In this document: positions 11,521-49,041 of the stretch, in pieces | How positions within the stretch are numbered: the first letter of the stretch is position 1 | Layout of the letters: each line of letters begins with the position of its first letter | DNA from: Brasilonema sp. UFV-L1 | GTDB taxonomy: Bacteria; Cyanobacteriota; Cyanobacteriia; Cyanobacteriales; Nostocaceae | Assembly (NCBI RefSeq): GCF_012912105.1 | Contig: NZ_QMEA01000099.1 | Span: 1 to 62,887 of the forward strand | Length of the DNA: 62,887 nucleotides | Direction of reading: 5' to 3' | The notes under the pieces: model-generated | The model's input: only the letters and a program-made list of their open reading frames with translations | Database searches by the model: none | What the model was told of the DNA's origin: nothing | Program-made: the position numbers and the translations under genes

Positions 11521-11529
11521 AGAATACAT

Positions 11530-11939: not shown

Positions 11940-11948
11940 ATTAAAACA

Positions 11949-20996: not shown

Positions 20997-21105
20997 GATT
21001 GTCTCCTTCAGCTTTATTGTAATGGTTCTTTAAGACGTTGTAGGCAGAGGTGCGGAACTTGCTCCGCACTCAATTCACCTGAAATTTCTGCCACCAATTG
21101 CTTTC

Positions 21106-29808: not shown

Positions 29809-30231
29809 TTCAGTTATCTCCACAAACACTACAAACAGATTATTGGCTGATAATCGTTGCTGATACTGCATTTTCTGCTTAAATCAGCTTGATATTTGTA
29901 ACTCTTATTATGTCATTTTCTGTAACCTTTATTACCTTCAAAAAAGGAAATCAAGGTAAAAGCGAAGAACTGCGAAAAACTAAGGATTTAATGACCTAAG
30001 ACTCGAATTCTTCGCTGTGATCACCAATTCGATTTATGAATGTTACAAACTCTCCTCTTCTTTTTATTTCGCTGCAACCAGAGGAAACTGCGTAGATAAG
30101 GAATTGTAAATGTGACAACAATAAAGCGAAATGGTATCTCTGAAAAAATGGTACGATTTCTATGCACAAGCCTTTGAAAAAATTCAAAAGACTTCACAAA
30201 TCGCTTTAGTCTTCTTCAAGAATTAGTTCAC

Positions 30232-31728
30232 CTATGCCATTGCCTCTGCTGGTTGAGAGTAGTACTCTTCAGATAAAACCGTATCTAGTGTTATTGCTGG
30301 GGTAATATCTTCGTTGACTGGGACTAATTTTAATTCAGGTTGAGTCATCAGACGCAAACCTTCAAAATCTGGTAGGTATCCAAATACCCCTCTCCACAAC
30401 TGCAAGAACACTGCTTGATGCTTTGGATCTAATTCCGCAGCAACTTTAGCTGTACCTGCCAATTCTTCGGCAACCATCAGTCGAACACCTTGCTCTGCTT
30501 TGGTTAAGAGTTCCACCATATGTTCTGCCACAAGATCACGGATATGGGGTTGAGCTGTCTGTAAGTCTTCTACTTCAGCAATAAAGCGCCTAGGTCCAGC
30601 GGAGGGATCGGCATCCATGTCCATATCCTCAGGTTTGGTGGTAATATGGTAGAAAGAAGATACAAAGATCAACAAAGTCAAGTAGTGGAATCGGTGAGTT
30701 TGATCATAGAAAGAATAAGCTTTTTCCTCTGTGACTTCATTTCGCAGTATGCTTCCTATACAAGCTGCAGACAAAATACCGCTGAAAAATGCCAAATGCA
30801 CTCCAGTAGAGAGCAGTGGATCTAGAAAACATGCGGCATCTCCTAACATGAAGTAGCCAGGACCAGCAAACTTCTCAGCAGAGTAGGAGTAGTCTTGTTC
30901 AACCTTGACTGGTGAGACTAATTCTGCTGTTGACACCAAATCGGTGACGTACGGGGTGTCAGCTATTCCCTCGGCATAAATTTCTTCCAAGCTTGCTTGC
31001 GATTTCCTTTGCTTGTAAATTTCCTTGTTCATGACTAAACCAGTGCTCAAGGTACCGTCACTCAAGGGAATTGCCCAAATCCACCCAGAACCATCATTAG
31101 TACGAGCACTGACAGTGGCATTTTCAGGCCAGATTTTGGAAAAGTCTGCATTCTTCCAATATCCCCAAATCGCTATGTTTTGGAATTCCTTATGATAGCG
31201 TCGGTTATGCAAGTATTGTGTTGACATCAAACCATATCGGCCTGATGCATCAACTAAAAAGTTGAAGGAAATCTCTCCAGAATTATCTACAGAAGACCAA
31301 GTAGCACTGGTTGGTCGATCGCCATCAAAAGATAGCTTGCGAATCTCGATTCCTTCAAAAAATTTAACTCCAAGACTTGTGGCGTGATCTAAAAGCAACC
31401 TGTCAAATTCACCGCGACGAACCTGGAAAGTGTACTTATCAAGTAGTCTTTGAAACTCAAGTCCCCACTGCCGAGGTCCCCACACAAAGTATGCTCCCTC
31501 TTTTTGCTGGAACCCATAAGATTCTACTTTCTCTCTCACACCCAATAGATCGAACATTTCCAAAGCTGCGGGCAATAAGGATTCGCCGATATGGTAACGG
31601 GGTGTGATTGCCTTCTCGACTAAAGTGACATCAAACCCTTGGCGGGCAAGGAGAGTAGCCGCAGTAGATCCAGCAGGCCCGCCTCCGACAACTAGGACTT
31701 GTGTAGAACTAGGTAGTTGTGTAGACAT
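30232..31728 (-). CDS. Flavin-dependent halogenase (phenol type)
   Basis: The enzyme would use reduced FAD, oxygen and halide to chlorinate an activated aromatic ring. The FAD-binding loop VLVVGGGPAGSTAATLLA is at the N-terminus, followed by RYHIGESLLPAA. The halogenase signature GWIWAIPL (WxWxIP) and the late motif FLDPLLSTGVHLA (FxPxxSxG) are both present. This separates it from ordinary monooxygenases. The ATG at 31728 (MSTQLPSSTQ) is preceded by TTGAGGAAAA; a TTG 15 bases earlier is less likely. It is the last gene of the cluster, 331 bases after the KASIII-like gene, with hairpins between. Free tyrosine-derived phenols or the finished core are possible substrates. No flavin reductase is nearby. 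Confidence 0.9.
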   Translation of the reverse strand: MSTQLPSSTQVLVVGGGPAGSTAATLLARQGFDVTLVEKAITPRYHIGESLLPAALEMFDLLGVREKVESYGFQQKEGAYFVWGPRQWGLEFQRLLDKYTFQVRRGEFDRLLLDHATSLGVKFFEGIEIRKLSFDGDRPTSATWSSVDNSGEISFNFLVDASGRYGLMSTQYLHNRRYHKEFQNIAIWGYWKNADFSKIWPENATVSARTNDGSGWIWAIPLSDGTLSTGLVMNKEIYKQRKSQASLEEIYAEGIADTPYVTDLVSTAELVSPVKVEQDYSYSAEKFAGPGYFMLGDAACFLDPLLSTGVHLAFFSGILSAACIGSILRNEVTEEKAYSFYDQTHRFHYLTLLIFVSSFYHITTKPEDMDMDADPSAGPRRFIAEVEDLQTAQPHIRDLVAEHMVELLTKAEQGVRLMVAEELAGTAKVAAELDPKHQAVFLQLWRGVFGYLPDFEGLRLMTQPELKLVPVNEDITPAITLDTVLSEEYYSQPAEAMA

Positions 31729-31879
31729 GATTGTTTTCCTCAATAGAATACAGCTTTGTGAATGAATTTTGGTAAAAACTGATTATTTTAAGAACACCTC
31801 GGTCTTAGTTGCGCTGTTTTAAAACTTTCACAGCTATTACCGAAGTTTGGTGTCAGGGTGGATTCACTTATTCCAAAGA

Positions 31880-31959
31880 CAACTCTCTAGAAAAGAGTTT
31901 TAATAGGTGGCATCCGTGCCCTTATCTGTATTATCTTCATAAAAAAACTCTTTTAGAGT
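31880..31959. repeat. Nested hairpins between the condensing enzyme and the halogenase
   Basis: AACTCTCTAGAAAAGAGTT (31880-31900 region) and ACTCTTTTAGAGT (31947-31959) each fold on themselves and also pair with each other (AAAAGAGTTTT with AAAACTCTTTT). The mutually exclusive pairing lies in the only long gap of the lower operon. It could be a terminator or processing site that sets halogenase levels apart. Confidence 0.4.
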
Positions 31960-32058
31960 CTAAATAATAGGGAACAAAACTTTTTTGTGCTACTCGTTAA
32001 GTAAAGGTTAGGAGCAAGGGATTAGAACATCCCCAGTTCCTAATCTCCAAACACCTAG

Positions 32059-33201
32059 CTAACGAGGAATGAGAATTTTATTCTCCTGTTGAGAAATACT
32101 AATTGAGGGAGCAGGAGCAGATCCGAGTGCAACGTCACCCCAGCGCATTACACTAGCACCTGCATTAGATGATGAACCCATTGTGTAGACAAGAACCACA
32201 TCGTTTTCCTTGATTTTGCCTGCGTGTGCAGCGTGGTAAAGATTAGCAACAGGGAACGTCGGCCCAATGTTGGCATACAAAGGATTGATATTGATTGTCT
32301 GCTCTGAGTCGATGCCTAATGCACGGGTGCAAACTCTTGAATACCAAGCACTAGGTGTATTGAAAACAAAAAAGTCGATATCACCCAAAGTTAGACCAGC
32401 ATCAGCGATCGCCCCATGACAGCACAGACGAATAAACTTCACTGTCGTCTCGTTGAACATCTTGCTTACACCTTTACCGCCCCGGATGAACATCTTGACA
32501 TTGCCTTGCTCATCGGTCGTGAATTCATTGTAGAAAGCACCACAGGTGACGGCGGTATTCGCTATTTTGGTACCGAGAATTCCTTGATCCTCTTTAAGCC
32601 TACTTACCACAAATGCTCCTGCACCATCGCCTGATAAAAATGCGAGAGTATCATTTTCGTCGGTATAGCGAGAGTAAGTCGTAGAAATGACCACCAGCAC
32701 ATTACGGTACTGTCTTGTTTGCACTAATGCACAAGCACTCTGGAGCGAAACCAATGCAGAAGTGCAGGTTGATTCAATATTCCATGCTGCACCTTGCAGC
32801 CCTAGTTTACCAGCTAAGAAAGCGGCATTGCCTGGTGTGACTTGCTCTGGAAACAAGGAGGTGACAAGCATAAGGTCAATGTCATCGGGGGAAAGCTTTG
32901 CCGCCTCAAGAGCATCGATAGCTGCACCATACTCCAGCGATAGCGAGGTTTCATCAGGAGCGACGACTCGCCGTTCAACAGTACCCCGGAAGGGGTCTGA
33001 CATATACGGCGCTACCTCTTGTGACCAGATGTCATCGTCGTTGTGAATTGTGGAGTTGTCAGGCACAAACAACTTTGCTAAAGTTTTTTGCTCAGCTCGG
33101 GCTATCAACTCTGGGTAATTTTCTCTGTAGTAATCGTTGGTGCGAATGATGCTGGGAAACTTAACTGAGATTGCACGAATACCTGCTGGACATAATTTCA
33201 T
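32059..33201 (-). CDS. KASIII-like condensing enzyme, furanolide synthase candidate
   Basis: The 380-residue protein has the thiolase fold of FabH-type enzymes. The nucleophile Cys146 lies in NIESTCTSAL, and GDGAGAFVV follows at 191-199. At the position of the catalytic His in the FabH PHQAN motif the protein has Asn281 (VFNTPSAWY). The third residue, Asn, is kept in YANIGPTF (Asn311). Loss of the His argues against plain decarboxylative condensation. In the cyanobacterin pathway, as I recall it, a KASIII homologue joins a coumaroyl-CoA unit to the ThDP-enzyme product and closes the lactone, and I infer that role here. Its ATG follows the upstream stop by two bases, so the genes are translationally coupled. 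Confidence 0.82.
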   Translation of the reverse strand: MKLCPAGIRAISVKFPSIIRTNDYYRENYPELIARAEQKTLAKLFVPDNSTIHNDDDIWSQEVAPYMSDPFRGTVERRVVAPDETSLSLEYGAAIDALEAAKLSPDDIDLMLVTSLFPEQVTPGNAAFLAGKLGLQGAAWNIESTCTSALVSLQSACALVQTRQYRNVLVVISTTYSRYTDENDTLAFLSGDGAGAFVVSRLKEDQGILGTKIANTAVTCGAFYNEFTTDEQGNVKMFIRGGKGVSKMFNETTVKFIRLCCHGAIADAGLTLGDIDFFVFNTPSAWYSRVCTRALGIDSEQTININPLYANIGPTFPVANLYHAAHAGKIKENDVVLVYTMGSSSNAGASVMRWGDVALGSAPAPSISISQQENKILIPR

Positions 33202-33203
33202 GA

Positions 33204-35012
33204 TTATTCTCCTTTTGATTCTAAAATGGCACCTTGTTTGATCAAACTCCGAATACGACCTCCAATTGGTGCAGGTCGGGAGGAGTCAATGGTCACATCA
33301 ACAACAAATGGAACTGTTGATGACATTGCTTTTTTTAACGCTAGTTCTAGGTCTAACTCTGTTTCCACACGCACACCATCCGCTCCCATAGCTTTGGCGT
33401 ACATGGCAAAATCTGCAGTTGGGATCGTCGTATCCACACCTTTGAATCCCTGCAACGACATCCCTTGGGCGCACATATTGTAGCGTCCATCGTTCAGTAT
33501 AATCCACACAGCGGGAACCTGAAATCTTACAGCTGTACTGATTTCATTGTTCATCAGCATTGCTCCGTCCCCAACAATGGCGACGACTTTGCTATTTCGT
33601 GCCAACGCAGCACCTACAACCCCGGTGACAGCATGACCCATAGCCCCGACACCAGTACTGATACGGTAACGACCTGGTTGAGTAAATCGCAGCAAATTTG
33701 TTGCCCAAGCAAAGGAATTACCCGCCTCAGCCATGACTAGAGCATCGCTTTGTTCAACAATGAACTGTTGAATCGCATTCATCAGTGCATCAGGTCGCAC
33801 TAAGCCATGTGTGTGTGGAGCGATCGCATTGCTTTCAGGATGAGGCAATGTTGATGTCGGTGACCAATTCAAGCGCTTTGGCAACTGTTTGAGCAGGTTT
33901 GTCAAAAACAATTTGACTTCAGAGTGGATAGAGAAAGTTGGTACTGATGGATAAGCCACTCCTGGGACTTCCGGATCGATATCCACATGAACAAACCCAC
34001 TAGCAGGAACCATCAACGGATTCCAGAATGAAGTCGGCTCACCCAGGCGTGTTCCTAAGACTAGGATGCGCTGCGGACGTTTTTCCTGCATATATTTCAA
34101 AACAGATTCATGTCCACTAAAGCCTGTGACACCGATATACTGGGGATGATTCTCTGGAAAGATGCCTTTACCACGGGGTGATGTCATCACCGCTGCGCCT
34201 GTTTTCTCAGCCAACTCAAGGATTTCCTGTGCAGCGTGTCGCGCACCAAAGCCAACCCAAATCGCAAAGGATTCTTCTGAGAACAACCGCACACATTCGG
34301 CGATCGCTTCTTCACCAGCAGTTGGTACAGAATAAGAAAACTCTGGCTGTGAAAATTGTGCTTTGAGTGGCGTCATCTGAAGAGGGGTTGGGATACTAAT
34401 ATGGGCGACAAAACCCCCTGGTTGTGCTAACCCAAGAGCAAGTCTGCGAGAAATTTCTGGGATTTCATCGCCAGATTCTACAGTCGTTGCATAATTGAAC
34501 AGTGGACCTGAGGTAAAAATACCTGAAATTGGCATCGTGTGAGCACTTGTTTCCTGACAAGCCCAACGACCGCGATTTCCAGAAGGAGTTGCAGCGGACA
34601 AAAGAATGACCTTTGCTCCATCTCCTCGTGCGGCGAAAAGCCCAGTGATTACGTTTGTAATGCCAGGTCCTGTAGTCGTGAACACCACGACAGGACGACC
34701 ACTTGCAAAATGAGCTTCGCAAGCTGCAAAAGCCGCTCCTGATTCATGGCGAAAATGAACGACTTCAATTGAACTGCGATCCAATGTTGCCCAAAGTGGC
34801 CCGATACCTCCCCCAGAGATACCAAAAGCATGGCGCACTCCGAGATTTTCGAGAACTTTGACCACAGCTTCTCCAACTGTCTGTTGTGGTGCTTCTAACT
34901 GGCTAGACTGTTGATGAGTGGATGGTGAGGAATCTGTAGGCGGCGAGAAAATAGAAGAACCAGCAGAATACTCAACTGAGGTATAGTTGGATTTGGTATT
35001 AGTAGGACTCAT
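33204..35012 (-). CDS. ThDP-dependent acetolactate-synthase-like carboligase
   Basis: The 602-residue protein belongs to the ThDP family of acetolactate synthase and ScyA. An N-terminal tail of about 45 residues (Ser- and Gln-rich) precedes the PYR domain, where Glu90 in FRHESGAAFA is the cofactor-activating residue. The PP domain has GDG at 481-483 with the paired Asn-Asp at 507-508 (IILNDGRYN). It would decarboxylate a 2-keto acid and add the resulting carbanion to a second carbonyl compound, giving an acyloin. In this cluster the likely keto acids come from tyrosine and a branched-chain amino acid (inference). It sits between the CoA ligase and the KASIII-like gene on one transcript. Confidence 0.88.
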   Translation of the reverse strand: MSPTNTKSNYTSVEYSAGSSIFSPPTDSSPSTHQQSSQLEAPQQTVGEAVVKVLENLGVRHAFGISGGGIGPLWATLDRSSIEVVHFRHESGAAFAACEAHFASGRPVVVFTTTGPGITNVITGLFAARGDGAKVILLSAATPSGNRGRWACQETSAHTMPISGIFTSGPLFNYATTVESGDEIPEISRRLALGLAQPGGFVAHISIPTPLQMTPLKAQFSQPEFSYSVPTAGEEAIAECVRLFSEESFAIWVGFGARHAAQEILELAEKTGAAVMTSPRGKGIFPENHPQYIGVTGFSGHESVLKYMQEKRPQRILVLGTRLGEPTSFWNPLMVPASGFVHVDIDPEVPGVAYPSVPTFSIHSEVKLFLTNLLKQLPKRLNWSPTSTLPHPESNAIAPHTHGLVRPDALMNAIQQFIVEQSDALVMAEAGNSFAWATNLLRFTQPGRYRISTGVGAMGHAVTGVVGAALARNSKVVAIVGDGAMLMNNEISTAVRFQVPAVWIILNDGRYNMCAQGMSLQGFKGVDTTIPTADFAMYAKAMGADGVRVETELDLELALKKAMSSTVPFVVDVTIDSSRPAPIGGRIRSLIKQGAILESKGE

Positions 35013-35044
35013 AGAAAAACCTCTTTTTTTTCTGAAGTTATTAA

Positions 35045-36565
35045 TCAGTTAGTGACAGTAGCTAAGTGCGGTGTTGATTCTGTTCGTAAAACTCGCTTCA
35101 GGACTTTACCTGTTGGGTTCTTAGGAAGTGAATCCACGAAGTCAATGATGCGGGGGACTTTGTAAGTTGCCATCCTCAAAGAACAGAATTCAATGATTTG
35201 TTCTTCTGTGAGTGCGTGACCAGCCTTAAGTACGATGTTTGCCTTGACTCTCTCTCCTTTCAAATCATCAGGTACGCCATAGACTGCACATTCAGCAACT
35301 GCGGAATGTTGATAGATAACATTTTCTACTTCACTTGGATAGACCTTAAATCCAGAAACGTTGACCATATCTTTTTTGCGATCAACGATATAGAAAAAGC
35401 CATCTTCGTCCACGCGACCGATGTCGCCAGTATGAAACCAACCATTTTTAATCACTTCAGCAGTTTCAAATGGGCGATTCCAATAACCAAGCATGACGTT
35501 TGGTCCCTTAATGACTATCTCACCCGACTCGCCAGGTTGTACTTGATGACCATAATCATCAACAATTTTCATTTCCACGTTTTCAATCGGAGTTCCAATG
35601 GAACCAACTTTATATTTCAGGTCATGGTTGTAACAAGCACATGGTGATGTTTCCGTCAAACCATACCCTTCATGAATGACTTTTCCGTATTTATCTAGCC
35701 ATTTCTGTGCAATTTCAGCGGGCATGGGTGCTGCTGCTGAGAAATAATAACGCAAGCTTTGAAGATTTTCAAAAGAGATGTCTGTATTCAGCAGTTCTAT
35801 AAAAATTGTCGGAACACCAAAGAACATTGTGACCTGATGGGTGCTGATAGCCTCAAGAACCTGCTCAAGCTTAAACCTGCGTTGCATGATAATGGTGGCG
35901 CAGACGTTGAGTCCAGCGTTGAGAATAGCGTTTTGACCAAAGCAGTGAAACAGTGGTAGAGAAAGCAGCAATCGGTCATCTGGTTGCATTCCACAGCAAC
36001 GATTATGGGAATACATATTGGAAACGATGTTACCGTGAGAAAGGGTAGCTCCTTTTGGGAAACCAGTTGTTCCTGATGTATAAACAATGCTAGCAGGAGC
36101 GTGGCGATCCATTTCCACAGCATGTGCTTCCTCTGAAGCACTTTCCATAACTTGTGCTAAAGTTATTCCCTTATTTGCTTGACCTTCTGCAATCAAAATG
36201 TGTTGCAGTTCGTATAAGTCTGCCTCTAGCACCTGTTCGCTTTGCAACTCTGTTGTGATGATGGCTTTAGCTGCACAATCATTGAGAATGTAGCTAACTT
36301 CAGCGCTTTTAAGCATCACGTTGACTGAGACAGCAACAGCACCAATTTTGAGAATTCCAAGATAAGAAATAATGAATTCTGGGATGTTTGGCAAAAACAA
36401 GGCTACGCGATCGCCTTTGTTAATTCCCAATCCCCGTAAACCATTTGCTACACGATTGGTTAGCTGGTTAAGCTGTTTGTAAGTAAAAGACTTATTCTCA
36501 AAAATCAGAGCTGTTTTGTCAGGAAATAACAGATGACCTCGTTCTATGTGATGTGCGATGTTCAT
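35045..36565 (-). CDS. Acyl/aryl-CoA ligase (4-coumarate-CoA ligase-like)
   Basis: The protein is an ANL-superfamily adenylate-forming ligase. Counting from the upstream ATG at 36571, the ATP loop YTSGTTGFPKG is at 164-174 and YGLTETSP at 303-310. GWFHTGDIGRVDEDGFFYIVD lies further on, and the catalytic Lys489 is in NPTGKVLKRV. Such ligases activate fatty or phenylpropanoid acids with ATP and CoA. Next to a tyrosine ammonia-lyase the natural substrate is 4-coumarate, which is inference; the sequence alone does not exclude a fatty acid. I start at MNIAHHIE (36565), two codons after the first ATG. It is 46 bases after the P450 gene on the same strand. Confidence 0.87.
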   Translation of the reverse strand: MNIAHHIERGHLLFPDKTALIFENKSFTYKQLNQLTNRVANGLRGLGINKGDRVALFLPNIPEFIISYLGILKIGAVAVSVNVMLKSAEVSYILNDCAAKAIITTELQSEQVLEADLYELQHILIAEGQANKGITLAQVMESASEEAHAVEMDRHAPASIVYTSGTTGFPKGATLSHGNIVSNMYSHNRCCGMQPDDRLLLSLPLFHCFGQNAILNAGLNVCATIIMQRRFKLEQVLEAISTHQVTMFFGVPTIFIELLNTDISFENLQSLRYYFSAAAPMPAEIAQKWLDKYGKVIHEGYGLTETSPCACYNHDLKYKVGSIGTPIENVEMKIVDDYGHQVQPGESGEIVIKGPNVMLGYWNRPFETAEVIKNGWFHTGDIGRVDEDGFFYIVDRKKDMVNVSGFKVYPSEVENVIYQHSAVAECAVYGVPDDLKGERVKANIVLKAGHALTEEQIIEFCSLRMATYKVPRIIDFVDSLPKNPTGKVLKRVLRTESTPHLATVTN

Positions 36566-36616
36566 AATCAAAAAGATTCTTTTCGTTTAATGATATTTAC
36601 TTACTTCGACGACAAG

Positions 36617-38038
36617 TTAATGAGTTATTAATGCCTTTTGAGTATTTTGTTGATTCATTTGACCAAGGTCTACTCTTGGCTCTAATGTCATCAGGATGCC
36701 GTGGCGTGTTTGCAAAGTGAGTAGTGGAGCTCTCTCAACTGGGTATTCAGGCACCAGGTTCAGACGAAACTGTTGAGATACCATTGCAACAACTAACTGA
36801 ATTTCAGTCAAAGCAAAGATATCGCCTAAGCACTGACGTGAGCCGCCGCCGAATGGAAAGTAAGCATACCGTGGACGATTAGCAGATTGTTCTGGCGAGA
36901 AGCGTTCAGGATCAAACCCTTCGGGGTTATCCCAGAAAGCCGGTAGGCGATGCGTTACAAATGGACTCAGTAAGAGCATTGAGCCAGCTGGGATATGATA
37001 ACCGCCGATCACGTCGTCTTTCAAGTTATTGCGGGCGTAGACCCAAGCACCTGGGTAAAGCCGCATTGCTTCCTGGACAATCATTTTGGTATATTTTAGA
37101 TTGGGCAAATCTTCAAAAGTTGGAGTTCGCCCATCGAGTACCGTAGAAAGTTCCTTTTGCAATTGCCTCTCTACACTGGGATACTTAGAAAGCAAGTACC
37201 AAATCCAGCTTAGCACTGCGCCAGAGGTCTCAAACCCAGCAGAGAATAGTCCTACTATTTGGTCATGCAATTGCTGATCGCTCAAACCCTCGCCTGACTC
37301 ATCGCGGCTACTCATCAACATTGAGAGTATGTCATTAGGAGCATCGTTACCTTGCTGGCGTTCTTGGATGATCCGATTAGCGGTTGTGCGTAGTGTGTTT
37401 ATTGCTTGTAAAAACTGACGGTTTTTCGGTGTGGGGAAGCTGATAGGTGGTTTGAAGACAGCCCACAGGCGATCGCTCAGGAACTTATATATAGTATTCC
37501 ATGCTTGAATCAGTTCGGTGGTGTCGCTGCTGGTGTCGATACTCAATGTCGTCTTCAGAAGCATCTTCTGCGTCAGCAAAAGCATTTCGTCATATGCATC
37601 AAGTGTTGCACCGCGCTCCATTTGGTGCCAGCGCTCTAGCATCTGGGCGATGGTTGCAGTCATGTCATTGACCATCGCTGCAATTTGCTGGCGGTGAAAA
37701 CTCGGCTGCATCAGGCGACGCTGGCGACGCCATGAGTCACCCTCGCTAATCACCAAGCCTTCACCGATGACCAGCTTCATTTCTTGAAAATTTTCACCTT
37801 TTGTGTAGTTCTGAGGATTTTCTTGCAGAACATGCTTCACACAATCTGGGTGAGCGATGAGGTAAAGTTGTTGCGGACCGATTGCTCCCAAGTGGACAAC
37901 ATCACCATACTCACGCGCAGCATTGGTCAGGAATTGCAACGGATTTGATGCCATTTGCAGAAAACAGCCAATAATAGGGAGACCGCGCGGACCTGGGGGA
38001 GCTTTGTAGATGTTTGCAGATATATTGTTTTTAACCAT
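36617..38038 (-). CDS. Cytochrome P450, first of three by position
   Basis: The 473-residue P450 shows the proline-rich hinge PPGPRGLPIIG, the I-helix oxygen motif SAGFETSG, the ExxR motif in EAMRLYP and the haem loop FPFGGGSRQCLGD with Cys403. No membrane anchor is seen, so it is a soluble bacterial type resembling cyanobacterial CYP110 proteins (family by impression). No ferredoxin or reductase is encoded nearby, so it must borrow redox partners. With its two paralogues it could hydroxylate the aromatic rings or make a methylenedioxy bridge in the product. It lies 15 bases after the next P450 gene. Confidence 0.93.
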   Translation of the reverse strand: MVKNNISANIYKAPPGPRGLPIIGCFLQMASNPLQFLTNAAREYGDVVHLGAIGPQQLYLIAHPDCVKHVLQENPQNYTKGENFQEMKLVIGEGLVISEGDSWRRQRRLMQPSFHRQQIAAMVNDMTATIAQMLERWHQMERGATLDAYDEMLLLTQKMLLKTTLSIDTSSDTTELIQAWNTIYKFLSDRLWAVFKPPISFPTPKNRQFLQAINTLRTTANRIIQERQQGNDAPNDILSMLMSSRDESGEGLSDQQLHDQIVGLFSAGFETSGAVLSWIWYLLSKYPSVERQLQKELSTVLDGRTPTFEDLPNLKYTKMIVQEAMRLYPGAWVYARNNLKDDVIGGYHIPAGSMLLLSPFVTHRLPAFWDNPEGFDPERFSPEQSANRPRYAYFPFGGGSRQCLGDIFALTEIQLVVAMVSQQFRLNLVPEYPVERAPLLTLQTRHGILMTLEPRVDLGQMNQQNTQKALITH

Positions 38039-38053
38039 TATACTTTGCTTGTT

Positions 38054-39463
38054 CTACTTTGTGTGTAATGTGAATTCGTGGGTTTTTCGTGACTCCAATG
38101 TCATCAAAAGACCGTGGCGCGATCGCAGTGCGAGCCTTGTATCAACTTCGACTGGGTGTCCGGGCACTAGCTTTAGGCTTAAGTGCTGGGATATCATAGC
38201 GACAATCAACTGGATTTCTGTCGTGACAAAAACATCACCTAAGCACTGACGTGGTCCGCTACCGAATGGAAAGTAAGCATAGCGTGGACGGCTTGCTGAG
38301 CGTTCCGGTGCCCAACGCTCAGGCTCGAAGTTTTCGGGATTTTCCCAGAAAGCTGGGTGGTGGTGTGTCACATATGGACTCAGCACGATCATTGAACCAG
38401 CTGGGATATGATAGCCGCTTATTTGATCGTCAGCTATGTTGGTCATGCTTAAAATCCAGACAGCTGGGTAAAGCCGCATCGTTTCCTGAATAACCATTTT
38501 GGTATATTTCAGGTTGGGAAGATCTTCAAAAGTAGGGGTACGTCCACCTAGGACTGTTGCAAGTTCTTCTTGAAGCTTGCTTTCTACATCTGGATACTGA
38601 GAGAGCAAGTACCAAACCCAACCAAGCGAGGTTGCAGATGTATCAAACCCAGCAACAAATAACGCTACAATTTCGTCGCGCAGTAATTGATCGCTTAAAC
38701 CCTCACCGGACTCATCACGCGCACTCATGAGCATTGAGAGTACGTCATCGGGGTGATTGCTGCTTTGTTGGCGTTCCCGGATGATTTGGTACACAACTGT
38801 GTCAATTGTCTGCACTGCTTGCAGAAACCGAACATTTTTCGGTGTAGGTACACTCAAAGGTACTTTGAGAAAAGCCCAAATGCGTTCTGTGTGGAAAGCT
38901 AACACAGTATGCCACGCCTGGATGATCTGTGCAGTTTCGCTGCTGTTGGGATCAAGACTTAACAATGCTTTGATCACAATCTTCTGCGACAGTTCCAGCA
39001 TTTCGGCTGCAACATCGATCTGTGCATTCTCCATGCTGCGCCAATGTTCTATCAACTCCTCAATCACCTTGGTCATGAGGGTGACCATTGCTGCAATCTG
39101 CTGACGGTGATGAAAAGCGGGCTGCATCAAGCGACGCTGACGCCGCCAAGCCTCACCCTCGCTGTTTATTAAACCGTTGCCTACTAGTAGTGTAAAATCT
39201 TTATCTTTAAAGTTCGCACCTTTTATATAGTTGTGATAATTATCTTGGAAGACATGCTTCACACCGTCTGGGTGAGCAAACAGATAAAGTTGTTGTGGAC
39301 CTATTGTCCCTAAATGAACAACATCACCATACTCACGCGCAGCATTGGTCAGAAACTGGAGCGGATTTGACGCCATTTGCGGAAAGCAGCCAATAATTGG
39401 GTAACCGCGTGGACCTGGGGGAGTTTTCTGGATGTTTGGGGAGATACTTTGTTTTATCATCAT
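38054..39463 (-). CDS. Cytochrome P450, second of three by position
   Basis: The 469-residue protein is closely related to its neighbours. It begins MMIKQSISPNIQKTPPGPRG and has the I-helix motif VAGFDTSATS, with Asp where the other two have Glu. The ExxR motif is ETMRLYP and the haem loop FPFGSGPRQCLGD has Cys407. The Asp in the oxygen motif suggests a different proton-delivery site from the other two, so a different reaction is possible. Ends and spacing place it in the same transcript as the P450 downstream; a 262-base gap holding a repeat separates it from the one upstream. Confidence 0.93.
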   Translation of the reverse strand: MMIKQSISPNIQKTPPGPRGYPIIGCFPQMASNPLQFLTNAAREYGDVVHLGTIGPQQLYLFAHPDGVKHVFQDNYHNYIKGANFKDKDFTLLVGNGLINSEGEAWRRQRRLMQPAFHHRQQIAAMVTLMTKVIEELIEHWRSMENAQIDVAAEMLELSQKIVIKALLSLDPNSSETAQIIQAWHTVLAFHTERIWAFLKVPLSVPTPKNVRFLQAVQTIDTVVYQIIRERQQSSNHPDDVLSMLMSARDESGEGLSDQLLRDEIVALFVAGFDTSATSLGWVWYLLSQYPDVESKLQEELATVLGGRTPTFEDLPNLKYTKMVIQETMRLYPAVWILSMTNIADDQISGYHIPAGSMIVLSPYVTHHHPAFWENPENFEPERWAPERSASRPRYAYFPFGSGPRQCLGDVFVTTEIQLIVAMISQHLSLKLVPGHPVEVDTRLALRSRHGLLMTLESRKTHEFTLHTK

Positions 39464-39550
39464 GCTTTCCTTTATTCATCAAGGATTTACTATCAGATGT
39501 ATATCTTAAAAAAAATAGCGCTAACCAGATGAGATTTAATTATTCTTTTG

Positions 39551-39671
39551 ATACCAAGTTGTATGTATAAGGTAAACATATCGGTTTGGTGAGGTAGACT
39601 GTTGAGAATTCAAGTTAACTCTCAACAGTTAACAATTCCAATAAGTTACATATTTGAAGACAACTTGGTAT
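39551..39671. mobile_element. Palindromic MITE-like repeat inside the P450 operon
   Basis: ATACCAAGTTGT (39551-39562) and ACAACTTGGTAT (39660-39671) bound 121 bases. An inner hairpin pairs CTGTTGAGA with TCTCAACAG near 39600-39629. A half-end, GATACCAAGTTGTA, also occurs near 2064. It separates two of the P450 genes and could act as a terminator or processing site. Confidence 0.6.
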
Positions 39672-39725
39672 GAAGAACGCCCTCGTTATCTTCTTGCTTG
39701 TTCACTGCAACAATGACAAGCAAAT

Positions 39726-41150
39726 TTAGACTTTTGATGGATACTCCAATCTGGAGTGCTTAACAAAACTGGGACGTGGCTCTAATATCATTGGCAGACC
39801 ACCGCGTGCTTGCAGTACGAGCTTCGGCTCAAGTTCGAGCTGATATCCTGGTGCTGGGCGCAAACGATATTGTTGAGCTATCATGGCGAGAACCAACTGA
39901 ATTTCAGTCAAAGCAAAGACATCGCCCATGCACTGACGTGGTCCACCACCGAATGGGATATATGCGTGACGCTGACGCTCAAAGATTCGTTCTGGCGCAA
40001 AGCGCTCAGGCACAAAATCTTCAGGATTTTCCCAAACCTCTGGGAGGTGGTGCGTCACAAACGAACAGAGCATGATCATCGAGCCACCAGGGATATGATA
40101 GCCACCGAGTTCATCATCGCCTATGGTGCTGCGGCTGTTAATCCAGACAGCTGGATAAATCCGCATCGCTTCTTCAACAACCATTTTGGTATATTTCAGG
40201 TTGGGCAAATCCTCAAAGGTTGGGGTTCGCCCACCCAGAACTGTAGCAAGTTCTGAGTGTAATTTCTCTTCTACCGCTGGATACTGGGAAAGCAGATAAA
40301 ATGTCCAAGCAAGCGAAGTACCTGATGTTTCAAACCCAGCACCAATTAAAGCACTGATTTCATCACGCAACTGCTGGTCGCTCATCCCTTTTCCGGATTC
40401 ATCACGCGCCATCATGATCATTGATAAGATGTCATTAGGATCATCGTTGCTTTGCTGGCGTTTCTGGAAGATTGGCTGGAGGATTCCATCGACTGTGCGT
40501 ACTGCTTGGAGAAACTTGCGGTTTTTTGGTGTAGGAATGCTCAAAGGTAGTTTGAATACAGACCAAACGCGATCGCAGTGAAAGTCAAACGCGGTACTCC
40601 AACCACGAATCAGCTCAGCGCTTTCTTTACTGTCAGGTTCAAGACTCAATAACAACTTCAGAATGATTTTCTGTGTCAGCAACAACATCTGTTTAAACAT
40701 GTTGATTGGCTGAGCATTCTCCATACGACGCCATTCTTCAAGCATCTGGGCAGTGATATCAGTCATGACGGTTGTCATATTTGCGACCTGCTTACGATGT
40801 AAGGCGGGCTGCATCATACGACGCTGGCGTCGCCAGAGTTCGCCTTCACTACTGACCAGACCATTGCCGATGATGGCGGTCATCGCCTCATCTTTCTGAT
40901 AGTTCGATCCTTTGGTGTAGTTTTGTGTATTCTCTAAGAGCATATGTTTCAGACTTTCCGGATCAGTGACCAGGTAAAGCTGTTGTAAACCCATCGCTCC
41001 TAGGTGGACAACGCCACCATACTGACGCGTAGCATGAGTCAAAAACTGGAGTGGATTTGATGCTATTTGCGGAAAGTTACCAACAATGGGGAGACCGCGT
41101 GGCCCTGGGGGAGCTTTACGAATTACTGGGGAGATACTTTGTTTGATCAT
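39726..41150 (-). CDS. Cytochrome P450, third of three by position
   Basis: The 474-residue protein starts MIKQSISPVIRKAPPGPRG. It has the oxygen motif GAGFETSGTS, the ExxR motif in EAMRIYP and the haem loop IPFGGGPRQCMGD with Cys407. It is transcribed directly after the ammonia-lyase (33 bases between) and before the repeat element. It differs from the other two mainly in the substrate-recognition regions, for example VNMTTV-like text near residue 165 and the acidic C-terminal segment LELEPKL. Substrate is unknown. Confidence 0.93.
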   Translation of the reverse strand: MIKQSISPVIRKAPPGPRGLPIVGNFPQIASNPLQFLTHATRQYGGVVHLGAMGLQQLYLVTDPESLKHMLLENTQNYTKGSNYQKDEAMTAIIGNGLVSSEGELWRRQRRMMQPALHRKQVANMTTVMTDITAQMLEEWRRMENAQPINMFKQMLLLTQKIILKLLLSLEPDSKESAELIRGWSTAFDFHCDRVWSVFKLPLSIPTPKNRKFLQAVRTVDGILQPIFQKRQQSNDDPNDILSMIMMARDESGKGMSDQQLRDEISALIGAGFETSGTSLAWTFYLLSQYPAVEEKLHSELATVLGGRTPTFEDLPNLKYTKMVVEEAMRIYPAVWINSRSTIGDDELGGYHIPGGSMIMLCSFVTHHLPEVWENPEDFVPERFAPERIFERQRHAYIPFGGGPRQCMGDVFALTEIQLVLAMIAQQYRLRPAPGYQLELEPKLVLQARGGLPMILEPRPSFVKHSRLEYPSKV

Positions 41151-41183
41151 CTTGCTTTACGTCCTTTCTTCATTCAGGAATGC

Positions 41184-42893
41184 CTATGACTTAAAACTAG
41201 ACAAGATGTCGTTAACAGCTTCTACAATCTGACCGCCAGATGCAATATCTTCTGCAATGCGAGCAATGTGTAAGTCTAAAGCTTGTTCGTGGTCGTTCCA
41301 AATGTAGGGGCGGTCAGCAGAAGGTGCTTGTCCAACAACATCGCGCACGGCGAGATAGAGTTCTCGGGTTGCAGGTGATAGGGTGTCGCGGGCGTCATAA
41401 TGGTTAGCTACTGCATAGGTGCGTAAATCAACCGCTTGCACTCCAAACATGAGGGCGATCGCCATATACTGTTGGAAAATATCTACTGAGCGACGCGCTA
41501 AATTTGCAGAAGCAAAACCTTGGCTGTTGATATTTTGGTTGAACTGTTCAGCGTGGGTGGGGAATCTATCGGCGATAGAATTTCCATAGAAGGTCAACAA
41601 AGGCATAATCGAGTTGCCTGTGATTTGTAACCCCTTGAGTCCCATGTTCACAACACGCTCTTGGTTCCCAACTAACGAAGCGGGCAGTCCATTGTTAAAT
41701 TCTGGCGCTACCAAATAGGCTATTTGCACATCCAGATGTTTAGCTAACAAGCCAATGTAATAGCGCAGTTGATCCATTCCCACACCAACGTATTGACCCA
41801 AGAAATTGCCACCATGATAACTAGCTTGGTTCTTAACATCAATCAGTGGGTTGTCAGTCGCAGAATTAATTTCTATTTCAATTTGTCTGGCAATCTCTTC
41901 AATACCATCTACAATTGGTCCCATATACTGTGGCAGGCAGCGCAACGAATAACGGTCTTGAATTGGATGTTCACCGCGATAGTCGTGAGAACCGTCTAAC
42001 TCTTCACGTACTAGGCGTGAACCTGCAAGCAGATTTAGCATTTGTGCTGCTGCCTTTTTCTGCCCTGGATGTGGTTTTAGCTCATGAATAAATGGGTGGA
42101 AAGATTGATTTGTACCATTCAAACCTTGGATTGCGAGAGCGTGCGCACCCATCGCGAGGGCTAATAAAATTTTGGTGTCATATACACAGTTAGCAGCAAT
42201 GGCTGTCATGACTGAAGTACCATTCATCATTGCCAACCCTTCTTTAGGAAGTAGTTGCAATGGTTCTAAATTCAGTCTAGACAGAGCTGTTGGTGCGTCT
42301 AGTTCTTCACCGTTAAAGTCAACTTTATAATTGGAATCCAGACCAACCAGCGACCCACAGATGTAAGCTAAAGGCGTTAAATCTCCACTTGCACCGATTG
42401 AACCCAACTCATGTATATGGGGTGTGACACCAGCATTTAAAAACGTTTCCATACGCTGGATAAATTCCAAGCGAATACCAGATGCACCATACAAGTGAGA
42501 GTTGGCTCGTAACAGCATTGCTGCCCGCACATCAGCGTTTGATAACTTTTGACCTGCTCCTACTTTGTGATAGCGCATCAAGTTATTTTGGAGGAGTGCC
42601 GCACATTCACGGGAAACCACGACGTTTGCCATACCCCCGAAGCCACTTGTCACACCGTAAATTGCCGCTCCTGACTCTACAGCTTCGTGGATGTAATCAC
42701 AAGATGCTTGAACACCTTGCAAGATATTCTCATTATCAGTAACACGTACTAAGAAACCACGACGTGCAACATTGGCTACGTCTTCTATTGTCAGGTTTTG
42801 TTCGCCCAAAACGACGGTTTTTTCTGAACTCCCATATAGGGGAGATGACAAACGAGAAGTTGTGCTTTTGGTAAAGGATGCTGTTTTTTTCAT
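41184..42893 (-). CDS. Aromatic ammonia-lyase, predicted tyrosine ammonia-lyase (MIO enzyme)
   Basis: The enzyme removes ammonia from an aromatic amino acid to give the cinnamic acid analogue. The MIO prosthetic group forms from Ala168-Ser169-Gly170 (GSIGASGDLTPL), and the catalytic Tyr79 lies in YGVTSGFGG. The whole chain is very similar to the Anabaena variabilis PAL, but Phe107-Leu108 of that enzyme is Tyr108-His109 here (LMRYHKVGAG). A His at this position is the established switch to tyrosine in bacterial TALs, so the product should be 4-coumarate. Numbering uses the ATG at 42893, which aligns with the PAL start. An upstream ATG at 42932 and a TTG at 42938 are in frame. It follows the DAHP synthase gene. 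Confidence 0.9.
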   Translation of the reverse strand: MKKTASFTKSTTSRLSSPLYGSSEKTVVLGEQNLTIEDVANVARRGFLVRVTDNENILQGVQASCDYIHEAVESGAAIYGVTSGFGGMANVVVSRECAALLQNNLMRYHKVGAGQKLSNADVRAAMLLRANSHLYGASGIRLEFIQRMETFLNAGVTPHIHELGSIGASGDLTPLAYICGSLVGLDSNYKVDFNGEELDAPTALSRLNLEPLQLLPKEGLAMMNGTSVMTAIAANCVYDTKILLALAMGAHALAIQGLNGTNQSFHPFIHELKPHPGQKKAAAQMLNLLAGSRLVREELDGSHDYRGEHPIQDRYSLRCLPQYMGPIVDGIEEIARQIEIEINSATDNPLIDVKNQASYHGGNFLGQYVGVGMDQLRYYIGLLAKHLDVQIAYLVAPEFNNGLPASLVGNQERVVNMGLKGLQITGNSIMPLLTFYGNSIADRFPTHAEQFNQNINSQGFASANLARRSVDIFQQYMAIALMFGVQAVDLRTYAVANHYDARDTLSPATRELYLAVRDVVGQAPSADRPYIWNDHEQALDLHIARIAEDIASGGQIVEAVNDILSSFKS

Positions 42894-43018
42894 TGTAAGT
42901 TTACTTGGATTTTGTAGTGGTTGATTAAACATCTCCAAAAATCAAACTTGAGTCTATATAGGATAAAGTCTTCATGCTTATTTTCGGAGATGCCTGGTGA
43001 GAAAAATGATTAACTTGT

Positions 43019-44122
43019 TCAAATACGCGCGGTGGAAGAAATTTTTGGAGCAAACTTAGGCAAAGTTGCACTGGTGCTATGGTTTTGATTCCAACGACCG
43101 AAGTATCTGCTTAAAGGAGCTATTTCTTGCATAAATAGCTCAAATGCTTCGATTGTCAGAGATTGAGGTCCATCTGAAAGCGCTTTTGCTGGGTTGGGAT
43201 GTACTTCAATCATCAAGGAATCTGTACCAGCTGCAATTGACGCCATTGCCATTGATTGCACAAACTCTGATTTGCCAGTGGCGTGGCTTGGATCAATCAT
43301 GATGGGCAGGTGAGTGAGCGTACGCAATACTGGAATTGCAGATATATCCAGGGTATTGCGGGTGTACTGCTTGTCAAAGGTACGAATTCCCCGCTCACAC
43401 AAAATCACATTTGGATTGCCTGCTGCCAGAATGTACTCAGCTGACATCAACCAATCTTCAATCGTCGCTGATAGTCCCCGTTTTAAAAGTACTGGCTTAC
43501 CAGCAGCTCCCACCTTCTTCAGTAGGGAGAAATTCTGCATATTGCGGGCACCAATTTGCACCACATCTGCCACATCTGCAACCTTGTCTAGGTCAGCTGT
43601 ATCCATGACTTCAGTGATAATCCCCAAACCTGTCACTTCACGAGCTTTTGCCAACAAGCCTAGAGCACTTTCACCGTGACCTTGGAAAGCGTAAGGAGAA
43701 GTCCGGGGTTTATATGCTCCGCCTCGTAAAAACTGTGCTCCTGCTGCTTTAACTGCTAAGGCAGTTTCAACAATCATCTCTTCGTTTTCTACAGAACAAG
43801 GTCCTGCAACGACGACTAGAGGATGGTTTTGCCCGAAGGTGACAGCCCCATTTGGTGTTGGTACAACTACATCACTTGGCTCACCATAACGAAATTCTAA
43901 AGAAGCCCGCTTAAAAGGCTTTTTCACGCGTAGAACCTGCTCAATGGAAGGACTCAAGTTTTGAATCTGTCTTGGATCAAGCTCTGATGTATCGCCTATT
44001 AACCCAATGACTGTTTTGTGACTACCTAACGAGATTTCTGGGATGATGTCTAAATTGCGAATTTCTTGACTGATTTGCTCAATTTCTACAGTCGTTGTGC
44101 CGGGCTTCATGATGATGATCAT
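43019..44122 (-). CDS. aroF: 3-deoxy-7-phosphoheptulonate (DAHP) synthase, type I-beta, copy 2
   Basis: This paralogue of the gene at 11949 has 367 residues and the same domains: an N-terminal ferredoxin-like regulatory part (VIGLIGDTSELDPRQ) and the catalytic barrel with AGPCSVENEEMIVETA, GGAYKPRTSPYAFQGHG, QIGARNMQNF, LLKRG, CERGIRTF and DPSHATGKSEF. All active-site segments match copy 1. Differences concentrate at the N-terminus and in the last 25 residues (here NHSTSATLPKFAPKISSTA). It is the first gene of the biosynthetic operon, directly before the tyrosine ammonia-lyase, so it would raise shikimate flux when the cluster is expressed. Confidence 0.95.
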   Translation of the reverse strand: MIIIMKPGTTTVEIEQISQEIRNLDIIPEISLGSHKTVIGLIGDTSELDPRQIQNLSPSIEQVLRVKKPFKRASLEFRYGEPSDVVVPTPNGAVTFGQNHPLVVVAGPCSVENEEMIVETALAVKAAGAQFLRGGAYKPRTSPYAFQGHGESALGLLAKAREVTGLGIITEVMDTADLDKVADVADVVQIGARNMQNFSLLKKVGAAGKPVLLKRGLSATIEDWLMSAEYILAAGNPNVILCERGIRTFDKQYTRNTLDISAIPVLRTLTHLPIMIDPSHATGKSEFVQSMAMASIAAGTDSLMIEVHPNPAKALSDGPQSLTIEAFELFMQEIAPLSRYFGRWNQNHSTSATLPKFAPKISSTARI

Positions 44123-46486
44123 AGTTCAAATCCTCTTTAGAGATTGCAAGTAGTCGTGTGTGTGCTTGATATAAACTCAGTGATTTCAGTTTGATTTCGG
44201 AGTTACACCTTGATAGAAATCTGATTAGGTAAAATGCCTCATCTTCTTATGCAACAGAAGTTCAGCTTGTTGTCATCCTTCTATATTGTTAATGGGTGTA
44301 AGGCAAAATCTACATTTATGTTCTTTGTGGATGGAAAGGAAAAAGAATACTATCAAATTAACTGCTTTCTGGACGGAGCCTATTAAAATGGTGAAGGCGA
44401 TCGCCTTTCATGCTGTTGAACAATTGGAGTGGTTCACTTAACTGATATTGCATGATTTGGTAGATGCACATAAAGTAGTAACTTGTGAAGTTGGTCGGAT
44501 AATTCCTTTTGGAAGTCTCTAATTACTAATCACTTCGGTTCCGGTGTTTTACGCAAAAATAAAAGATAATTTTTTCTAATCAATATTTCGTTTATCTCTA
44601 AAAAAAGATTAGTTTTTACTATCCAAGGACTATCTTTCATACATTTGGTAAAAACACTGAGTTTTCCTATTCGAGAACTTAGAGTACAGGCTTAGCTTCC
44701 TACAGGATATTCACAGTTTCAATTTCTTGGAAACAGTAAATTGATTGCATTTTAAGATCATGAGTCAAGCCGTCCACTTTATTCAAATATTGACTCACAC
44801 ATGAAAAATTCACACGCTAAAGATATCATGCCTGCTAAACATTTGGCATAGCTGTGTGGTCAGTTTAAGGCTTTTTTGTGTCTTCTTTTCGAGAAGCTAG
44901 GAATTGCAAAATAGTCTGTCTACAAGGCATATTTGATGCTTACTCTTTGAGCAAGCTATGCAAATGTGTAGTCTGCTCATAGAGAACACATTTGAAAGCA
45001 GCAAGGCTCACATGACTTTTAGACAGTCATAAGGAACTCATGACGACTGAAATTTTGTAAATCGACTGAAGTCAACGTTGTAATGTATAGCTCGTTGCAC
45101 TGAAATAAGCAATGACAATTTTATACAGAATTCTAGAGTGTTTCTTGAGATTGCTAGAATCTACAAATTATCATTGATGGTTAATCAACTTTCTGCAAAA
45201 TTCTACAGTTGACTGACACATCTTTTTCAAGCCTGTTCAATGAATCATTTCAATTTTCCAAAACAAACTATTTATAGTTTGCTTTATCTATAGAGAAATA
45301 TTTTTGCTCAAGAATAACTTTCGTCAATATTCTCTATTATTTTGAACTGTTAATAGCTTGATTGAGGTGGGTTTTGAGTTCAACAAACTTATACCTGCCA
45401 CTACAGGTACTAAAGACCAATAACTTTCCATTGTGGCATAGCTCATTAACATCATGCACTCCTAACTTATGCTTTGATAAAAACTTAAAAGTTTTCGGTT
45501 TTCATCAGTGTTGAGAGTTCAAAAAAAGATAAATTTGGCATTGTTCATCTTTTCTAAAATCTATACAGAAAGTTCTTGTTTGTCAATACTCTGAGTAAAT
45601 TTTCTGAAAAAGAAATATACATGTCAAAAAAAGATGAAGAATTGATGAAGTGTAGAAAAGACAGTCTTTCTCTTTTTTCTACAAAATATGCGAATCGCCA
45701 TAAGCATATACATTTACTAGCTGATTGTCAGATACAACAAGCAGCTACTAAGAACAACGAAACACATAATAACCCAAGTTGCTAGTTATCAAAAAGCGCC
45801 TTGTTTTAAGTACAAAATTCCAACCAAGTATTTTTCATTACTTGGAAATGTACTTTCTGTATCAAAATGATACGGTTTGAGGGCACTAATTAGCAACTTA
45901 CGTTAATAGACATAATTAAGTTGTGTCTGCATATTCTTTGTTGTCACTGCCTCAGAAAAAAACTTACAGCGATTTAAATGATGAAACTACAACAGTTTAT
46001 AAAGCGGACAACACCCACTCTGTAGAAAATTGTTGTCAAATCCTGATTAGGATGTTTGAAAAGTATCGACTATGTCATCGTGTTCACAAAGCGTGCCATA
46101 GACATCGGTAGCGAAGCACAATAACAGGTGTAGCATGGTGGTTGAAAAATAAACAACTTAACTTTAATAGGTTATGGCTCATGAAACTTATGCAGTAAAC
46201 AAACGTCAGGTACTCTGGGCTTTTATTCCCACATCTTTGGTAAGACTTCAGCTTCAGTGGGTTAGTGTTACGCAAAATATCGTAACTTCGTAACATTTCT
46301 TAAAATAAGGAGTTGACATTTAAGCATTTACTTATCTATACTACGAGATAGTTAAGTATTTGGTTAAATATTTGGATGAGGCTAATGAGAGGATGAATGA
46401 GAAGATTTTTGCTTTTTCAAGCAACGAAGTGATGAACTGACAATGCCTGCTAGCCTAGTTTACCTGCTCCAAAATGCATAATCGCT
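44123..46486. other. 2.36-kb AT-rich non-coding region upstream of the cluster
   Basis: This is the longest gene-free stretch in the window and holds the promoter of the biosynthetic operon. One HIP1-like site is at about 44396-44404. A possible small open frame at 45621-45785 (MSKKDEELMKCRKDSLSLF, 54 codons) has only weak initiation signals. A short hairpin AAAACTT/AAGTTTT is near 45482-45496. I see no recognisable gene, tRNA or promoter box that I can defend. Confidence 0.4.
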
Positions 46487-47987: not shown

Positions 47988-48093
47988 TTTTCTACTTGAA
48001 ATAAGGTAAAGATAATTTTTTGAAAAGACCCTAGCTAGCTATTTTGACAGTTGGGTTAATTTGCCATTCTCTATTTCTTGGGAGACAAACGTT

Positions 48094-48750: not shown

Positions 48751-49041
48751 CATTTGTTTTGAATTTGTCTTACTCCCTTCGGTGGTCTAAGATTACCTAT
48801 ACTCACACCGAATGCACCAATTGCGTTATTGCAATTTTTGTAAGGTGGGCACTGCCTAGGCTTCGCTCAAAACCTTATTTTTACATTGTGGACAGTGCCC
48901 ACCCTACGGTTACTGAGTGACTTTAGTTTCCGGCAAAATGCAACACAATTAAAAAGCAAATTACAATCTTTTGATATAAAAATGCCCTTAACAATTAGGG
49001 CAGATTACTTGCTGTCGAATTTTCCTTTGGAGAAAATAGCT

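Follow-up and report, generated by a model that had tools for sequence, protein, structure and literature searches.

The cyanobacterial furanolide clusters named in the literature are cyb, ncl and mac. The furanolide machinery is described as a lyase (CybB), a CoA ligase (CybC), a thiamine diphosphate (ThDP)-dependent enzyme (CybE) and the furanolide synthase (FS) CybF (PMC13288894, PMC12395478, PMC8777810), the last of which is reported to perform an acylation and a Morita-Baylis-Hillman-type cascade (PMC13288894, PMC8777810). The outline of cyb also includes an NAD(P)-binding protein, CybG, and a halogenase, CybI (PMC8777810), and mac of Nodularia sp. NIES-3585 comprises 11 genes in 15.5 kb (PMC13288894). 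A putative nostoclide cluster has been named in Nostoc strain 210A (PMC5987646). In the DNA analyzed here, a 62,887-nucleotide stretch of Brasilonema sp. UFV-L1 (contig NZ_QMEA01000099.1, hereafter the window), a lyase, a CoA ligase, a ThDP enzyme and an FS-like ketoacyl synthase III (KASIII) homologue are encoded together, and the locus is very probably a furanolide (alpha,beta,gamma-substituted butenolide) biosynthetic cluster. This class had been proposed by an initial annotation and is upheld by the presence of all four core enzymes, which resemble those of maculalactone-type and cyb-like clusters.

The initial annotation described nine minus-strand genes between positions 30232 and 44122. 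All nine open reading frames (ORFs) are open at these coordinates, and Pfam and NCBIfam agree with every class assigned; the limits, however, proved too narrow. Same-strand genes continue from 29871 to 24329, adding four secreted proteins, a chorismate mutase and a TyrA-like enzyme, and the closest relatives carry the same kinds of genes after FS, so the cluster was extended to 24329. It consists of 15 genes from about 24.3 to 44.1 kb, separated from the DAHP synthase to TyrA by 2-583 bases, and the next gene was taken to lie 2,173 bases beyond. In order of transcription, the genes are as follows.

43019-44122, minus strand: DAHP synthase, putatively for precursor supply, like macA (Pfam DAHP_synth_1, NF009933; ahead of the lyase in many relatives)
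41184-42938, minus strand: aromatic amino-acid lyase, predicted tyrosine ammonia-lyase, CybB/MacB-like (Lyase_aromatic, 500 bits; ASG triad, YH pair)
39726-41150, minus strand: P450a, the most divergent of the three cytochromes P450 (Pfam p450)
38054-39463, minus strand: P450b (Pfam p450; 79% identical copy in locus L004)
36617-38038, minus strand: P450c, adjoining the CoA ligase and common to other furanolide-type clusters (identity to the relatives' copies)
35045-36571, minus strand: 4-coumarate-CoA-ligase-like enzyme, CybC/MacC-like (AMP-binding, 351 bits; 74% identical copy in mac-type locus L064)
33204-35012, minus strand: ThDP carboligase, CybE/MacE-like (NF035927 ScyA-related, 1021.5 bits; below the ScyA cut-off; tree)
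32059-33201, minus strand: FS-like KASIII homologue, CybF/MacF-like (Cys146, Asn281 replacing His, Asn311)
30232-31743, minus strand: flavin-dependent halogenase (Trp_halogenase/CmlS-like; motifs GGGPAG, KEGAYF, WIWAIP)
29122-29871, minus strand: secreted PEP-CTERM protein 1, EXP family (no Pfam domain; signal peptide and tail by pattern; family linkage)
28382-29053, minus strand: secreted PEP-CTERM protein 2, EXP family (no Pfam domain; patterns; alignment)
27352-27996, minus strand: secreted PEP-CTERM protein 3, EXP family (Pfam PEP-CTERM at E 7e-4, just under the gathering score; pattern; confident beta-strand core model)
26711-27340, minus strand: secreted PEP-CTERM protein 4, EXP family (no Pfam domain; patterns; domain model with mean pLDDT 94)
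25690-26127, minus strand: chorismate mutase, AroH type, like macM (CM_1, 151 bits)
24329-25492, minus strand: prephenate-dehydrogenase-like TyrA, putatively supplying 4-hydroxyphenylpyruvate (PDH_N and PDH_C)

The furanolide synthase homologue and its ThDP partner

A fatty-acid FabH identity, which the initial annotation had named as the alternative for its KASIII-like protein, was tested and rejected. The window FS shares 66.0% identity with the mac-type FS (L064) and 63.4% with a copy on contig C286 of the same genome, against 23.6% with the genome's own FabH-like KASIII (contig C199); the latter retains the HQAN motif, whereas the window protein reads NTPS there and has lost the condensing His. 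The FS tree (72 rows) also places it elsewhere, in an 11-row clade with L004, L005, L006, L008, L009, L011, L012, L013, L014 and L017 (SH-aLRT 99 in a quick search without bootstrap, as was the ThDP tree), and groups the C286 copy with the mac-type FS in a separate clade. This tree omits L007, L010 and L018 (fragments or contig ends), the repeats L060, L061, L062 and L065, and rows of fewer than 330 residues.

The active-site residues of the window FS are C146, N281 and N311. Across 70 aligned FS rows, from which the myxobacterial row L015 was left out, the nucleophilic Cys is kept in all 70 and the Asn at 311 in 69, and the site of the condensing His of HQAN is occupied by Asn in 60 rows, Thr in four, Tyr in three and His in three. 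The loss of this His fits an enzyme without a decarboxylative Claisen step on malonyl-ACP and would be compatible with the cascade reported for CybF. The Asn-for-His change offers an easy way to recognise the furanolide-synthase family from sequence.

FS homologues (E 1e-60 or better) were found in 73 of the 388 genomes of the order, at 92 places; two of these are in the window's genome, and of the other 90 the flanking DNA was read at 59. At 21 of the 59 loci, FS is accompanied by a lyase and a close CoA ligase; 16 have a ThDP gene without that pair, and 22 have neither, these last often adjoining very large ORFs. Since FS homologues occur without the lyase-ligase pair, FS alone is no marker of furanolides, and the four-gene set is. 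At L093 (8403-12325), L094, L096, L099-L101, L104, L106 and L109, FS stands with a ScyA-related ThDP gene, neither a lyase nor a close CoA ligase is present, and an ORF of about 325-350 residues, secreted-looking in L093, is a frequent neighbor. At L080, L083, L084, L088, L110 and similar loci, FS homologues form longer frames (about 500 residues), without ThDP, near distant CoA-ligase matches and very large ORFs, and perhaps represent a different use of the FS fold.

The ThDP protein scored 1021.5 bits on the NCBIfam model NF035927 (ScyA-related, cut-off 1000) and 924.4 bits on ScyA (cut-off 1020). Its ScyA-type relationship, together with the PEP-CTERM proteins that both systems possess, would suit a reading in which the KASIII/ThDP pair serves a ScyA-type pathway, scytonemin-like or otherwise, instead of furanolide synthesis. 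Yet the ScyA equivalog score is under its cut-off, and proteins above the ScyA, ScyB and ScyC cut-offs are encoded elsewhere in this genome, on contig C9. The 20 kb read at this scytonemin (scy) locus showed no lyase, CoA ligase or FS match, and the window's EXP proteins resemble the proteins at the ScyD/E/F positions only along 27-51 residues of the C-terminal tail. We consider a scytonemin-type role very unlikely, and the ScyA identity of the ThDP protein, an alternative named in the initial annotation, was rejected on the NCBIfam scores and the separate scy locus. The assignment as a CybE/MacE-like enzyme of a furanolide pathway also draws on the ThDP tree, from which L007, L010, the repeats L060, L061, L062 and L065, and rows of at most 480 residues were omitted.

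The ThDP and FS genes are indeed two bases apart, as the initial annotation stated. At 43 loci (39 distinct, with L060, L061, L062 and L065 repeating L011, L013, L017 and L014), the ThDP gene precedes FS in the same orientation, with gaps ranging from -56 to +386 bases. Given this range, the two-base spacing carries no special weight, and the conserved feature is the adjacency of the two genes.

Comparison with the mac-type and cyb-like clusters

Locus L064 of genome G292 contains 11 ORFs (1323-16860, 15.5 kb) in the order 388-residue ORF, DAHP synthase, lyase, ligase, ThDP enzyme, FS, chorismate mutase, tyrosinase, TTHB210-like protein, NAD(P)-binding protein and bilin reductase. This gene content and size fit the published mac, and L064 was therefore taken as a mac-type stand-in. 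Like the window, it combines DAHP synthase, lyase, CoA ligase, ThDP enzyme, FS and chorismate mutase with hypothetical proteins, one of them secreted-looking; identities to the window proteins reach 80% for the lyase, 74% for the ligase, 65% for the ThDP enzyme and 66% for FS. In contrast, the mac-type locus has a tyrosinase, PcyA and a lyase of FL type and lacks P450 and halogenase genes; the window differs by its three P450s and halogenase, by TyrA and the EXP family, and by a lyase of YH type.

A second complete furanolide-type cluster is present in the same genome, on contig C286 (L019:8941 to L020:3016), with genes for DAHP synthase, lyase, ligase, O-methyltransferase, ThDP enzyme, FS, an NmrA-like protein, two Rieske oxygenases and a flavin halogenase. 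Cyanobacterin bears a methoxy group, from which an O-methyltransferase is expected. The C286 cluster fits the cyb outline and is a candidate, by gene content, for the cyanobacterin cluster itself; its halogenase stands tenth, however, whereas the letter of CybI would imply ninth place if the genes were named in order. The window shares with it the core enzymes and a flavin halogenase, the latter judged by family and motifs and not by the CybI sequence. Among the 15 genes between 24329 and 44122, no CybG-like NAD(P)-binding gene, O-methyltransferase or Rieske oxygenase was found, whereas the window has P450s and EXP genes, the EXP copies in this genome being found only there and none on C286.

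It follows that the "cyanobacterin-type" label of the initial annotation holds for the core furanolide set and fails for cyanobacterin proper. That the window cluster is the cyanobacterin cluster itself would agree with its core enzymes and halogenase, as published for cyb (PMC8777810); however, the methyltransferase, the Rieske oxygenases and the CybG-like gene all stand on C286 with a second core set, and the FS proteins of the two clusters belong to different clades. We give this identification almost no credence, and cyanobacterin proper was rejected for the window. Judging from this locus, two furanolide clusters with different tailoring sets seem able to coexist in one cyanobacterium. 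New in the window are the tailoring set (three P450s, a halogenase and no methyltransferase) and the secreted family; the pathway class was already known.

In tyrosine and phenylalanine lyases, the selectivity loop governs substrate choice. The window lyase has the ASG triad and a YH pair in this loop (NNLMRYHKVGAG), as does the cyb-like lyase on C286 (NNLIWYHKVGAG); the mac-type lyase has an FL pair (NNLVWFLKSGAG). CybB acts on tyrosine, and mac yields tribenzyl-type maculalactones in E. coli (PMC13288894). The YH pair shared by the window and cyb-like copies, against FL in the mac-type one, points to tyrosine as the likely substrate of the window lyase, and makes the YH/FL pair a candidate predictor of tyrosine versus phenylalanine use.

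Tailoring genes and the predicted product

The closest relative of the cluster is L004 of Scytonema sp. RU_4_4 (FS 92% identical), whose contig ends upstream; it encodes P450b, P450c, ligase, ThDP enzyme, FS, five EXP proteins, an MFS transporter, chorismate mutase and TyrA, and no halogenase. The Nostoc-type loci L005, L006, L008 and L009 have P450c, the core enzymes, EXP, chorismate mutase and TyrA in the same order as the window. They differ in possessing one P450, between lyase and ligase, two to four EXP copies, no halogenase, and a linked multicopper oxidase with a twin-arginine-translocation (TAT)-like start together with a further secreted protein, EXPb; the window's genome has this pair (72% and 61% identical, respectively) on contig C234 (L143:5164-7588), apart from the cluster. 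L009, from strain 210A, is inferred to be the named putative nostoclide locus. L159 has the Nostoc-type set with P450 and multicopper oxidase each in two pieces, lying around other ORFs (3148-5524 and 14667-18304), and L158 is without P450 and without a recognised chorismate mutase.

A second group by gene content (L011, L012, L013, L155, L156, L157) has ABC transporters and EXP proteins without the PEP-CTERM tail; a methyltransferase match above 50% was found in four of these six loci. In L155 (5891-9461), the ThDP gene lies in two frames with a ligase fragment, and a lyase was not seen. Window-type FS was present in two of the seven searched genomes that share the genus code of the window's genome, its own included.

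P450c is the most widely shared of the three P450s, with identities of 94% in L004, 80-82% in L005, L006, L008 and L009, and 58-60% in L066, L072 and L073. P450b is shared with L004 (79%). Of the loci read, the window alone showed P450a, but the contig of L004, the closest relative, ends just upstream of P450b.

The halogenase frame is open and keeps the Lys of the KxG motif and the WxWxIP motif; its nearest relatives of solved structure are RadH, 8zop, CmlS and 3e1t, with RadH closest. Halogenases at E 1e-80 or better occur in at least four of the 388 genomes of the order, and the window's genome has at least three (C336, C286, C312); these are lower bounds, as three candidates were scored per genome. 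The third of these (C312, L135:9187-10638) is 59% identical to the C286 enzyme and adjoins a distant CoA-ligase-like protein; the 16.9 kb read around it contained no match to the furanolide core. A halogenase was seen beside FS in two of 17 EXP-bearing clusters (16 of the family and L014), namely the window and L014, from a Xenococcaceae metagenome-assembled genome (MAG). The order FS-halogenase-EXP-chorismate mutase-TyrA is common to the window and the distant L014, which weakens the idea that the halogenase is a recent insertion. As L014 forms an early branch of the FS clade, the slot may be old. In another genome, a 55% identical halogenase lies within a lyase-ligase-ThDP-FS locus (L139, FS 61%).

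From the observed gene identities, family placement, active-site residues and linkage, we infer the following reactions, product and roles of the secreted proteins. DAHP synthase, chorismate mutase and TyrA would make more tyrosine and 4-hydroxyphenylpyruvate available; the lyase would form 4-coumarate and the ligase its CoA ester, and the ThDP enzyme would couple 4-hydroxyphenylpyruvate with a second alpha-keto acid. The KASIII-like FS would then acylate the acyloin using coumaroyl-CoA, with subsequent ring closure, after which P450c and the two other P450s may oxidise the product and the halogenase chlorinate a phenol ring. Beyond the cytoplasm, the most likely task of the four exosortase-tailed proteins would be to retain the excreted product or to process it further. 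With no O-methyltransferase nearby, a free-phenol furanolide is expected and not cyanobacterin; the predicted product is chlorinated, hydroxylated and non-methylated. Chlorination itself we regard as somewhat favored.

Several points weigh against this reading. The lyase-ligase pair is missing from 38 of the 59 FS loci, mac-type and cyb-like clusters recognised by content stood in for CybB, CybC, CybE and CybF (BK059219) in the comparison, and the choice of lyase substrate hangs on a single residue pair. Furthermore, mac expressed in E. coli gave the same result with and without its extra genes (PMC13288894); the window locus offers a way to test the role of the secreted part. Between FS and the halogenase lie 315 bases, and 15 of the 17 kindred clusters showed no halogenase, although in one of these 15 (G450) a contig break hides the slot between FS and EXP. 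Being separate and rare among kin, the halogenase owes its proposed place in the pathway to position.

The halogenase and the extra P450s could accordingly be idle or serve another product, the furanolide itself being non-chlorinated and nostoclide-like. L004 lacks a halogenase between FS and EXP, as do the Nostoc loci with a readable slot, and a nostoclide-like product is expected of these halogenase-free Nostoc relatives; moreover, the halogenase is flanked by gaps of 315 (FS) and 360 bases (EXP), compared with 2-80 at six of the seven core junctions. On the other side stand the halogenase of L014 in the same slot, that inside L139 (a different FS clade member by identity), and the open, motif-bearing frame in the window. 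This alternative is rather unlikely in our assessment, and the chlorinated, hydroxylated furanolide is retained as the prediction.

Secreted proteins linked to one FS clade

The EXP family is represented in the window by four tandem paralogues of 249, 223, 214 and 209 residues, 43-61% identical to one another, and these four are the only copies found in this genome. By pattern, all four begin like a signal peptide and end in a PEP-CTERM tail, which Pfam recognises in one copy, just under the gathering score. Two exosortase genes above the Pfam cut-off were found in the genome. Among the relatives, the tail was recognised by pattern in 26 of 27 copies of the window/L004/Nostoc group (ten loci), in none of the 11 copies of the second group, and not in the single copy of L014.

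A profile built from 24 members, with strong matches defined as at least 190 bits, detected EXP in 16 of 217 genomes of the family. Each of these genomes also encodes an FS of 80% identity or more, and in 15 of them EXP lies within about 6 kb of FS; in the remaining genome, G450, the two are on two contigs, with FS at a contig end. Weaker matches (68-79 bits) occurred in seven more family genomes, three of which have an FS (57-59% identical), not beside the weak match; the FS search covered 28 of the 217 genomes. The order-wide search gave strong matches in four of the 388 genomes and two more at 28-31 bits, the strong one outside the 16 family genomes being G233 (L014, FS 66%). Against a strict linkage of EXP and FS stands L017, a member of the 11-row FS clade in which no EXP was found in the 20 kb read or in a search of its genome, G254.

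The EXP core was modeled as a mostly beta-strand domain (mean pLDDT 94). Foldseek searches with two models gave no PDB match at E 0.001 or better among the best 50 of 596 and of 393 rows. The best 50 of 393 for the second model include many avidin and streptavidin chains (E about 0.8-2.2, TM up to 0.42), matches too weak for a claim of a ligand-binding barrel of this type. A profile search of PDB sequences yielded nothing useful (best E 0.043), and a likeness to dirigent proteins was considered and found unsupported. The locus suggests a tie between one FS clade and a secreted protein family for which Pfam and the PDB fold and sequence searches returned no relative of known function.

Nostoclides and cyanobacterin analogues are reported to be readily excreted (PMC12481558), and with PEP-CTERM proteins linked to FS, a stage at or outside the membrane would be reasonable. 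A precedent comes from Nostoc punctiforme, in which deletion of the exosortase abolished scytonemin, polar effects not being ruled out (PMC12188702). By analogy with the roles proposed for ScyE and exosortase in scytonemin formation, we tentatively suggest, as a possibility on the doubtful side, that one clade of furanolide pathways has an exosortase-dependent stage outside the cytoplasm, where EXP, in several members together with a secreted multicopper oxidase, might bind the excreted phenolic lactone and either steer its oxidative coupling or hold it at the surface; the product of the window would be chlorinated and further oxidised, and a second furanolide would be made by the same genome. 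Among the literature matches listed, nothing tied furanolides, cyanobacterin or nostoclides to PEP-CTERM proteins or exosortase. Secreted proteins of unlike families recur across furanolide-type loci: a different secreted-looking protein, TTHB210-like in L064, lies beside furanolide-type genes at L064:13124-14065 and L139:17069-17977.

Around the cluster, no ORF of 100 residues or more was found in the upstream interval 44123-46486, beyond which lies a divergent ArsR/AHSA1/cupin group without evident link to the cluster. Within the window, no RNA family reached its gathering score, and promoter and terminator counts were at the level of shuffled sequence. A second DAHP synthase gene (11949-13049, plus strand), 83% identical to the cluster copy, is located 30 kb away on the opposite strand. 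Other neighbors are an adjacent pair of ORFs of similar look, one with DUF4114 and with no cluster link seen (19386-22155, minus strand), a TnpB/IS605 OrfB-like protein (17326-18891, plus strand), and tandem ClpP-like genes, the second with a shorter frame (48061-49647, plus strand).

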